61,026 nucleotides of DNA from Candidatus Chromulinivoraceae bacterium (lineage in GTDB: Bacteria > Patescibacteriota > Saccharimonadia > Saccharimonadales > Saccharimonadaceae), in contig DATIJL010000003.1 of the NCBI GenBank assembly GCA_035478595.1, forward strand, positions 1 to 61,026. Direction: 5' to 3'. This document shows, piece after piece, positions 27,762 through 42,869 of this stretch; position 1 is the stretch's first letter, and every line of letters starts with the position of its first letter. The translations under genes and the position numbers were made by a program. Below the pieces are notes generated by a model. The model made no database searches. It had not been told where the DNA came from and saw only the letters and a program-made list of their open reading frames with translations.

Positions 27762-28199
27762 CTATTTAATCTCCTCAAGTTTCGCGATCAACACATCAGC
27801 TTCTCGATCGAATACCTCATATAAACGGTACATTGCCCTAACCCTATCATTCCCTGGTTTTAGCTGTAAGCCTTCTCCAGCTACTTCAAGTGCTTGAGAA
27901 GAAGCTTTTAAACGATGGATTGCATTGCGCTTCCAACTGCTTGAGTCAATCTCATAGAGCATACTCCTCATACCTGGTACACTTACGGGTCGTGCCATTC
28001 CTGAACTGCGCAAGACAGCAAGCACGTTACTGACCGTACCTGTCGAGAGCTTTAGTGTTTCCTGAATGTCCTTTGCGGATTGAGTAACGGGTTCGCAGAT
28101 AAGTAGGTAGCCTATTACCCGCGCAAGGCTTCGAGGCATGCCAGTAGCGTGCCCGAATAATTCCATCTTTTCAATAAAAGCGAGTGATTCTTTGTCCAT
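27762..28199 (-). CDS. MarR/GbsR-like transcriptional regulator, 145 aa
   Basis: The start at MDKESLAFIEKM (28199) lies 7 bases after a TATAAT box, so the transcript is probably leaderless; a start at MKTDIITF (28223) is possible. The winged-helix DNA-binding part reads SAKDIQETLKLSTGTVSNVL followed by LRSSGMARPVSVPGM, as in GbsR-type MarR relatives, with a C-terminal helix for dimerisation (VFDREADVLIAKLEEI). It is divergent from the alpha/beta hydrolase at 28281 and probably regulates it. Confidence 0.82.
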   Translation of the reverse strand: MDKESLAFIEKMELFGHATGMPRSLARVIGYLLICEPVTQSAKDIQETLKLSTGTVSNVLAVLRSSGMARPVSVPGMRSMLYEIDSSSWKRNAIHRLKASSQALEVAGEGLQLKPGNDRVRAMYRLYEVFDREADVLIAKLEEIK

Positions 28200-28280
28200 A
28201 AAGGTGATTATATCAGTTTTCATAAATATCTGAAATATTTGATATACTGATCTTAACTCACTATAAAAAGGAGGCTCATA

Positions 28281-29060
28281 ATAAAAAAGCAAATACAAAA
28301 TAAAGATATCACTCTACCAATCACGATTACGGGTGAAGGCCAACAAGTCATTTTCTTTAACGGAGGTGGTGCGACTCAGATTAGCTGGAAGAAAGTTATC
28401 CAAGAGCTCAAAGGCAATTACCAAATAATAACCTTTGACTTCCGTGGCCACGGCAAGGCATCAGTAGCCGGTGACTACTCATTCGATGCTTTCTTAAGTG
28501 ACGCAGAGAGTGTTATGAGTATGGTCAATTCTAACAAACCGATTGTCGTTGGTTGGTCACTCGGCGCTGATCTCGCCTTAGCATATGCAGTTGCGCATCC
28601 TGGTGAGGTGGGTGGACTTGTGCTCATAGATGGTGCCGTGCCTCTTACTGAGCCACTGATTGAGAATGAGACTCAATTACGGCAATCTCTCAAAAGCCCC
28701 ATCATGAAACTCAGCAGACTTTTGATACGATTTACACCATATAATTATCAGATTTGGGGTGATGCATTCGCCGATATCGTCGTTGAGGTTGATGCACGCA
28801 GGCAGAAGCTGTTAGGTGACTATGCAAACGCCAGCTGCCCTATAACGATGGTTCTCGCAGAAAAGAGTGGTGGCTTAAAGGGTGCTCATGCCGAACGTAA
28901 TAACAAAATATGGCGCGCGAGTGCTGAACGCCTCGTGGCTCAGTATCCATCAATTTCTATACAATGGATAGATGATAGTCATCAATTACCGTTCAAGCAT
29001 CCCGTCGAACTTGCAAAAACAATTGACGAGGTTGCTGCTCGTCTGAAGGCTGCTAATTAA
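28281..29060 (+). CDS. Alpha/beta hydrolase with an apparent AUA start
   Basis: The reading frame encodes a complete alpha/beta hydrolase: VIFFNGGGATQISWKKVI (oxyanion loop), ITFDFRGHGKAS, the nucleophile elbow GWSLGA, and DDSHQLPF with the late His. The only ATG upstream of the nucleophile is at 28515, which would delete the first 78 residues including the oxyanion strand. The strong Shine-Dalgarno AAGGAGG (28268-28274) is followed by two ATA codons at 28278 and 28281, and a TAA at 28254 closes the frame upstream; no ATG, GTG or TTG lies between. Initiation at AUA 28281 (259 codons) is the simplest reading. A mutated ATG is the alternative. Substrate unknown. Confidence 0.75.
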   Translation: MKKQIQNKDITLPITITGEGQQVIFFNGGGATQISWKKVIQELKGNYQIITFDFRGHGKASVAGDYSFDAFLSDAESVMSMVNSNKPIVVGWSLGADLALAYAVAHPGEVGGLVLIDGAVPLTEPLIENETQLRQSLKSPIMKLSRLLIRFTPYNYQIWGDAFADIVVEVDARRQKLLGDYANASCPITMVLAEKSGGLKGAHAERNNKIWRASAERLVAQYPSISIQWIDDSHQLPFKHPVELAKTIDEVAARLKAAN

Positions 29061-40214: not shown

Positions 40215-41531
40215 ATGGCGGTTGATAATAAATTCAGACTAATGACAGCGGTCGAAGCCGAGGACGAGTTAGGTAAGAAGTATTTCTATCGCCAGAAAAC
40301 CTATCGCTACCATGCAGCGGGGCGCCTTCACGCCTTTGATTACCATGGTAAGCAATGCTTCCTGCCAAGTACGCTTATTAAGCCGTACATCGAAGATCTC
40401 AAGGCTAAGCTCGATCGACAGTTTCCTGAGCTCCAGTATAGCGAGGTATTCTATGACGATCTAACTCGTCGGATGGTTGTGGACGGCATCTTTAGTCGGT
40501 ATGTGGCTGCATATACTGATCAGGAAACCGAGGAAGACCTCCTGAAGAAGATTGCCCACTTAAAAGAATGGTTCCTTGAACAAGGCGAACTGCAGGACGG
40601 CGATCCAACGGTGCCGGCAGCCGACGAGCCTGAGGTTGTGGAAAAACCTGTGGAAAAGGACTTCGTCGATTCAGACGATGATCTTCCAGCACCGATAGCA
40701 TCTCAGTTTCCTGAATCTATTACGTTTGTTCGCGTTGATACACCAGCTGTTGAAGGGGTTGATGTTAAGAGTCTTATCCTCATAAGCTTGCCGTCCATCG
40801 CACAGTTCATAGGGGTAAAAACAGACTCATTTTCCGAATGGTTGAGCGCCACCTCATTTGTGGACTTTACGCTTAGCATCCACCACAGGAAAATCCATGC
40901 TCCGGAAATTTCCGGAGCATGGAAAAAAGGAATACAGAACGGTCTCGTGCCTTTCTTGCCCTTAGAAATGATTCCAGAACTTCTTGTCGCCTTTAAACAG
41001 AGCAACCGGACACCGGCGTATCCTGGTCGGGCGGAACAGCTATACCAATTAGCGAAGAGTACTCTCGAAGCTGTTGGCCTGGCTATCTCCGGTAATAAGA
41101 CACAGGCTGCCAAAGAGCTGGCGAGGGTCAGTGAGGGCTTGGGCATATCGGCAGCCGATCAGGTGATTGAAATATTTAAGCGATATGAATCACGCCCCTT
41201 CCAGGTTGATACGAATAAGTCCTTCCGGGGTCGGGTAATGAAAGAGGGCAAGGACATTAAAGTCGTCACTGGCGATATTACACTTGGCGTAACTGGACGA
41301 TGGCCAAGTCAGTGGCTGGCAGACGGGAAGAAGTACAACCTACCAAGTAAGCAACGCACCACTGGTCGCGAGGTCATGCGGACCATATCTCCTGCTGACA
41401 GTGTGGGCATCACCTTCAGCGAAAGTCACTATCTTAAAGACTCAAGTAATATGAACGAGGTAATAGAGACTGGCAAACAAGGTAAGAACTTCTATACACG
41501 GCTGAAAGACGTTGGTTTACTAGACGACTAG
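40215..41531 (+). CDS. Transposon passenger protein of unknown function, 438 aa
   Basis: The start at MAVDNKFRLMTAVEAED (40215) follows AAGGAGG. An N-terminal part (FYRQKTYRYHAAGRLHAFDY, then GKQCFLPSTLIKPYIEDL) resembles a MerR/excisionase-type helix-turn-helix reader. A charged linker (EVVEKPVEKDFVDSDDDL) follows. The C-terminal region (SLPSIAQFIGVKTDSFSEWL, then GLVPFLPLEMIPELLVAF) loosely recalls phage antirepressor or Bro-N-like domains. No firm family. It is convergent with the transposase and the two genes share the palindromic stop CTAG (41528-41531), consistent with one mobile unit. Possible regulator or host-interaction factor. Confidence 0.7.
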   Translation: MAVDNKFRLMTAVEAEDELGKKYFYRQKTYRYHAAGRLHAFDYHGKQCFLPSTLIKPYIEDLKAKLDRQFPELQYSEVFYDDLTRRMVVDGIFSRYVAAYTDQETEEDLLKKIAHLKEWFLEQGELQDGDPTVPAADEPEVVEKPVEKDFVDSDDDLPAPIASQFPESITFVRVDTPAVEGVDVKSLILISLPSIAQFIGVKTDSFSEWLSATSFVDFTLSIHHRKIHAPEISGAWKKGIQNGLVPFLPLEMIPELLVAFKQSNRTPAYPGRAEQLYQLAKSTLEAVGLAISGNKTQAAKELARVSEGLGISAADQVIEIFKRYESRPFQVDTNKSFRGRVMKEGKDIKVVTGDITLGVTGRWPSQWLADGKKYNLPSKQRTTGREVMRTISPADSVGITFSESHYLKDSSNMNEVIETGKQGKNFYTRLKDVGLLDD

Positions 41532-42334
41532 CCGCCGTCCCAAATAGTGCACAATGCCGCGCGTCCTAACAAAATTGGATACATAGCCTGACTGCGATGC
41601 GAATAGCGCCAGGTGAACTCATCAACATAGAGCTGCAGATACTTGCGTGAGACACGATGATACGTACCGTCGATTGAGCGTTTTAGCTGGCTCCAGAACC
41701 CCTCAATTGTATTGGTCGACACGCGATGGCGAGCATACTCGCGGCGCGCGTGATTAACTGAGTCGTGCTTGATCCCATACTTTTTCGTCCAGAGGTAGAT
41801 CTTCGACTCATCGCTATAGAGGGTGCTGTCAAACTCGATATTCTCGTGAAGAAATGTCTTCGCGCGCCTCATCGAGGCTGTGTCGGATACCTGCGCTCGC
41901 ACCTCCCCGTCACGCTCCACCACACTGAGAACGGGGACCTTGTGTCGCGGGCCGGCCGAGAACCTGCGTCGACCACCGTAGTATGTTTCGTCGGCTTCGA
42001 CGGTTATACCGCGGCCACCGATCTTCTCTGCAAGGAACATCAGTCGGCACACCTGGTGGCCCATGCGATGGGCTGTCTTGTATGTAACGCCAAGATGGCG
42101 CTCTAACTCCTTAGCCGCAACGCCGTTCTTAGAGGCTGAGAACAGGTAGCTGCAGTGCATGCAGGCGTAGCACTTACGTCCAGCAACCCTAAAAAACTTC
42201 GTGTCTATGACGCCGCAGCGTGGGCAATCCTTCACGTGGCCAAAGCGCGCCTTGAAAATAAGGTCGAGGCAGACGTCATCATCTGGAAAGTCCATCCGGA
42301 ACTGCTTGACGGTATATCTCCTGCTGCGCCTCAC
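41528..42334 (-). CDS. IS1595-family transposase, intact
   Basis: 268 residues from GTG 42334. An N-terminal zinc ribbon (CPRCGV and CYACMHC) is followed by the ISXO2-like DDE domain: VEADETYYGGRRRF (Asp), STLYSDESKIY (Asp), SVNHARREYARHRV and NTIEGFWSQLKRSIDGTYHR (Glu region). All key residues are present. It moves the element bounded at 40076 and 43374 by cut-and-paste-type transposition. Confidence 0.93.
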   Translation of the reverse strand: MRRSRRYTVKQFRMDFPDDDVCLDLIFKARFGHVKDCPRCGVIDTKFFRVAGRKCYACMHCSYLFSASKNGVAAKELERHLGVTYKTAHRMGHQVCRLMFLAEKIGGRGITVEADETYYGGRRRFSAGPRHKVPVLSVVERDGEVRAQVSDTASMRRAKTFLHENIEFDSTLYSDESKIYLWTKKYGIKHDSVNHARREYARHRVSTNTIEGFWSQLKRSIDGTYHRVSRKYLQLYVDEFTWRYSHRSQAMYPILLGRAALCTIWDGG

Positions 42335-42869
42335 GAGCAGAGAAAAATAGGTTGAGTAAAAAGAAAATGGAAGGGCGTTCAGTATGTACCTCCTTTCTTT
42401 AGGTTGATGTCAACGCGAGAGCGTAACCAAAATAAAACACCCAAAGGAGGTGCTAGCAAAATAGTGATGAAGGTGCAGACGCCCCCTGGCGTTTGTTTGT
42501 GGTGGGAAGAAAGACTCTCTATTACGACGTGCGAAGTCGCGTTGTTCGTTACTTTATCATAACCCCTTTTTGATTACGAGCATAACCGAATTGCCAGGCT
42601 GCAAAAGTAGTGATGTAGCAATAAACACGGCATATATAGCGTCTAATTGCTTTCCAATGACACAATTGGGTGATAAAATTAAAAGTGAAAGGTACGTAGG
42701 TAGGGAGCACGGGCGAGAGGTTAAGGATCCTTTTTGTCTGTCGCCTTGTTGCGTGCAACTCTTGTCACAACTAGGGGGCGGATAAACGAGATCACCTCGT
42801 CGTCTCGGCCGACGATTGCGATTTCAGGAGCCAATGCCCCATTCGTCAGTGCTCCAGGAAAGGAATTTT
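42335..42869. other. Transposon internal non-coding stretch
   Basis: About 530 bases between the transposase start and the SANT-like gene. It holds the transposase promoter region (minus) and an extended -10 TGATAAAAT at 42671-42679 (plus), giving a leader of nearly 190 bases for the next gene. A GC-richer open frame at 42734-42982 overlaps that gene in another frame and is not called. CCAAT/ATTGG arms (42654-42669) flank the upstream side of the -10. Confidence 0.5.

Follow-up and report, generated by a model that had tools for sequence, protein, structure and literature searches.

Does an alpha/beta hydrolase gene of a Candidatus Chromulinivoraceae bacterium begin at an AUA codon, and if so, has that codon replaced an ordinary ATG? 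The question arises from a 61,026-nt stretch of assembly GCA_035478595.1 (contig DATIJL010000003.1, positions 1 to 61,026; hereafter the window), where the Shine-Dalgarno (SD) site AAGGAGG (28268..28274, forward strand) is separated by the letters CTC from two successive ATA codons, at 28278..28280 and 28281..28283. The in-frame stop TAA at 28254-28256 lies upstream of the SD, and the frame is then open to the TAA at 29058-29060. On re-reading, the coordinates that the original prediction had given for the SD and both ATA codons were all exact, and a sequence scan confirmed its claim that the frame holds no ATG, GTG or TTG from the TAA at 28254 until the internal methionine Met79 is reached; the first standard start is the ATG at 28515..28517, which is codon 80 counted from 28278 and codon 79 counted from 28281. 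Nor did the scan find an ATG in any frame shortly 3' of the SD. The same prediction had offered two readings, that AUA initiates here or that an ATG-to-ATA mutation has weakened the gene; both fit what we found, and they are mutually compatible. We consider it reasonably probable that this is an intact hydrolase gene whose start at 28281 became ATA by one change from ATG and is weakly translated.

The frame is a real, intact alpha/beta hydrolase gene (28281..29060, forward strand; 259 codons plus stop). It matches the Pfam profiles PF00561 (6.5e-17; 62.4 bits against a gathering cut-off of 25.8) and PF12697 (3.2e-16; 61.1 against 26.3), while its scores to the specific NCBIfam hydrolase families fall under every cut-off. 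The nucleophile elbow G-x-S-x-G reads GWSLG (with S94), the C-terminal catalytic histidine is H235, and both are invariant in five relatives; the frame contains no frameshift or internal stop. The closest relative found, from Peptococcaceae bacterium CEB3 (LDXJ01000064.1), shows 56% identity over the full length. Profile matches, this identity and the conserved S94 and H235 together bear out the fold assignment made from the sequence at the outset. Orthologues from Streptomyces and Nonomuraea are more distant, at about 35%, and one genome of the same order (L003) carries an orthologue at 38%. No orthologue nearer than that of CEB3 was found in searches of the genus, the order, the phylum and the phylum of CEB3. 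Hydrolase matches occurred in 3 of 101 relatives and in 9 of 393 genomes of the order (the own genome counted in), and this rarity marks the gene as accessory, possibly gained by transfer. Viral contigs yielded no orthologues; phage matches were weak, the sole full-length one being at 24% identity.

As to where the ancestral start lies, residues 1-78, the part that a start at Met79 would cut off, turn out to be the best conserved segment of the protein: identity to CEB3 is 68% there and 51% over the remainder. Before Met79, mismatches to CEB3 fall 15/13/53 on the three codon positions, with pN 0.20 against pS 0.89. The sequence 5' of the first standard start has a coding score of +22 (infC, discussed below, scores +7). 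Since the segment before Met79 is the most conserved and its substitutions fall mostly on third positions, Met79 is not the ancestral start, which, judging from these comparisons, is the SD-proximal site. That the gene is nevertheless translated from Met79, with the upstream part left untranslated, has in its favour that this is the first standard start codon in frame, but we give the idea next to no credence: the ATG at 28515 has no SD of at least four matching bases, the 78 codons before it are under the strongest protein-level constraint, and they include the conserved region with FFNG and FDFRGHG, to which relatives in Pfam and PDB align. Orthologues starting at the internal methionine would have spoken against the original prediction; instead they begin at the SD-proximal site. 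The CEB3 ATG (L005:3004-3006) aligns opposite the second ATA, at 28281, as expected of a mutated start codon, and the annotated ATG of Streptomyces decoyicus (L016:1486) is one codon off, opposite 28278. We therefore take 28281 as the most likely start codon and the position of the ancestral ATG, and 28278, at a short spacing of 3 nt from the SD, as the alternative. Loss of an ancestral start by frameshift was rejected because no out-of-frame ATG lies near the SD.

The SD itself is exceptional. Its duplex energy of -11.8 kcal/mol is in the top 2-5% among 303 sampled ORFs, and its spacing of 6 nt to 28281 is normal; the identical SD at the identical distance precedes an ATG elsewhere in the genome (AAGGAGGTTCATT-ATG, L031). 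AAGGAGG-N3-ATAATR is found a single time in the window, where shuffling predicts 0.01 occurrences. The site has three of the features looked for in an AUA start, namely a strong SD 4-9 nt from the AUA (AAGGAGG, 6 nt before 28281), no standard start in range, and coding constraint from the AUA onward. We found no RNA structure hiding the start; the predicted fold is weak (z = -0.66).

The divergent regulator that had been noted beside the hydrolase is likewise real (27762..28199, reverse strand). It scores 21.5 bits to PF12802 (2.6e-4), under the Pfam cut-off of 27, and on that account is called no more than MarR-like. Its start is most likely the ATG at 28199 (an alternative ATG is at 28223), because the methionine there, residue 1, aligns with Met1 of the regulator in L003, the genome of the same order in which the hydrolase is likewise divergent from a MarR-like regulator. 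The regulator may be leaderless: some 8 bases separate a promoter-like TATAAT (28212-28207) from its ATG at 28199, which lacks an SD. Between the two genes, an imperfect palindrome (28215..28258; 24-nt arms, 71% complementary) is a possible operator and overlaps a promoter-like TTCATA-18-TATACT (28219-28248); promoter-like hexamers are no commoner in this interval than in shuffled sequence.

If a single G-to-A transition in the ancestral ATG gave the ATA at 28281, the mRNA would still bind the 30S subunit through the near-perfect SD with its 6-nt spacing, and the initiator tRNA would have to read AUA with a mismatch at the third position. Initiation factor 3 (IF3) would discriminate against that mismatch, so that protein would be reduced, not absent; output would be a fraction of the AUG level, above zero, with the strong SD partly rescuing the weak start. 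The gene would probably be under the control of the divergent MarR-like repressor. From sequence we infer three things: the presence of the ATA in the organism, initiation at the AUA, and a low yield. Published measurements give a range for such starts: about 10-30% of AUG for AUA with an extended SD in S. aureus (PMC13009471), a drop in protein of as much as 5-fold, short of complete loss, after ATG>ATA in E. coli rpoS (PMC12864459), and, from Hecht et al. 2017 as cited in PMC12864459, at most about 1% of AUG for ATA in E. coli, a level from which low expression is expected.

Are such starts used elsewhere in this genome? Our sample covered 790 kb (70%) of the 1.14-Mb genome, with 800 ORFs, and the hydrolase was the only clear case among them of a coding frame opened by an SD and an ATA. 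The only other clear non-AUG start in these 790 kb is that of infC (L036:372-890, reverse strand), either an AUC at 7 nt or an AUA at 4 nt beyond AGGAG. The infC genes of 30 relatives (L068-L097) likewise have no standard start codon where one would be expected; by reading, the homologous codon is ATT or ATC in 28 of them and ATA in two (L087, L096). These AUN starts, seen here and in 30 relatives, make it very probable that the lineage's ribosomes begin translation at AUN codons preceded by a good SD. A genome-wide AUA habit, on the other hand, was rejected: among the genome's 51 AGGAGG-N3-9-ATA sites, all inspected, only the hydrolase frame clearly opens at the ATA, and one case, an IS1595-type transposase, is ambiguous. 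In this transposase (PF12762, PF12760; window positions 41527-42409, reverse strand) AGG replaces the methionine that precedes a conserved RYTVKQF segment in many relatives; an AAGGAGG has an ATA 3 nt and a CTG 6 nt after it, and the gene may start at that CTG, or 16 codons further at a GTG without an SD. A third candidate for an SD and ATA (L117) was discarded, as it appears inside a longer ORF. A search of the literature on start codons in Saccharibacteria returned nothing relevant.

The infC genes of this genome and its 30 relatives resemble the hydrolase in having an AUN codon behind a strong SD. As established in E. coli, infC uses its AUN start for self-regulation, whereas the hydrolase has no known reason for an AUA. 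In S. aureus, citZ, ccpN and infC likewise have AUA behind a strong SD, and the citZ AUA, an allele specific to its lineage in an ordinary metabolic gene, is the nearest parallel to the hydrolase (PMC13009471). Ribo-Ret mapping and reporter measurements stand behind those AUA sites, while the hydrolase is known from its sequence alone; and the ccpN AUA is conserved between species (PMC13009471), while the hydrolase ATA comes from one genome. The rpoS change was also a single G-to-A in the start codon of an otherwise intact gene, but it arose in laboratory cultivation from a known ATG parent (PMC12864459), whereas the ATG ancestor of the hydrolase is deduced from an orthologue. That orthologue, from CEB3, has the same N-terminus as the window hydrolase but starts at ATG (or at an upstream GTG) and not at ATA; the SD at its ATG is weaker (-7.4 against -11.8 kcal/mol), and it adjoins an ArsR-like regulator rather than a divergent MarR-like one.

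A possible objection is that ATG is the organism's usual codon at 28281, the ATA having come in through faulty assembly or sequencing or being the allele of a minority or of one strain. The site is one base away from a normal AAGGAGG-6-ATG start, the rest of the gene is undamaged, and the assembly, with its 19 contigs, estimated contamination of 1.38% and two infC copies, is probably draft or mixed. Against this, substitution errors in a consensus are rare, and it is improbable a priori that one should hit a start codon exactly, so we regard the objection as unlikely to hold, while taking it seriously. The second infC copy (L037:2-403, on G000:C19) is cut by a contig end and is similar but not identical to the C9 copy, which suggests strain mixture, contamination or a duplicated region. 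The window has a G+C content of 0.475, typical of the other contigs (0.44-0.50).

Accepting the ATA as real, one could still argue that it silenced the gene, a pseudogene in the making whose AUA initiates too little to be useful. AUA is among the weaker initiators, and the gene is accessory and missing from nearly all relatives, so its loss could be tolerated. Yet ORF, SD, S94/H235 and divergent regulator are all intact, so that any loss would be very recent, and a strong SD is the published condition for retained AUA activity (PMC13009471); silencing seems to us distinctly improbable. At the opposite extreme, the AUA would be a selected regulatory start that holds the hydrolase at a low level and lets its synthesis respond to IF3 or growth state, in the manner of infC and S. 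aureus ccpN. The exceptionally strong SD, the conservation of non-AUG infC starts in the lineage and that of the ccpN AUA between S. aureus and B. subtilis (PMC13009471) agree with such selection, which we nonetheless hold to be most improbable: the nearest orthologue carries an ATG at the corresponding position, and no second genome with the ATA was found. The broader proposal, that the AUA is fixed, functional and regulatory in an accessory hydrolase of the lineage, tuned by IF3 and compensated by the unusually strong SD, is very doubtful as well.

We return, then, to a probable single ATG-to-ATA change giving a weak AUA start, known so far from one genome, in a gene whose nearest orthologue found has ATG. 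The change is of an unusual but already known kind, and this is a new example of it. Should the ATA prove real, standard gene callers would place the start at Met79 and drop 78 conserved residues, or would miss the true start, and the hydrolase would provide, apart from infC, a natural AUA start in a lineage of small genomes whose initiation has been little studied. For that lineage, the infC starts at AUU, AUC or AUA in 31 of 31 inspected genomes support the standard model of IF3 self-regulation.
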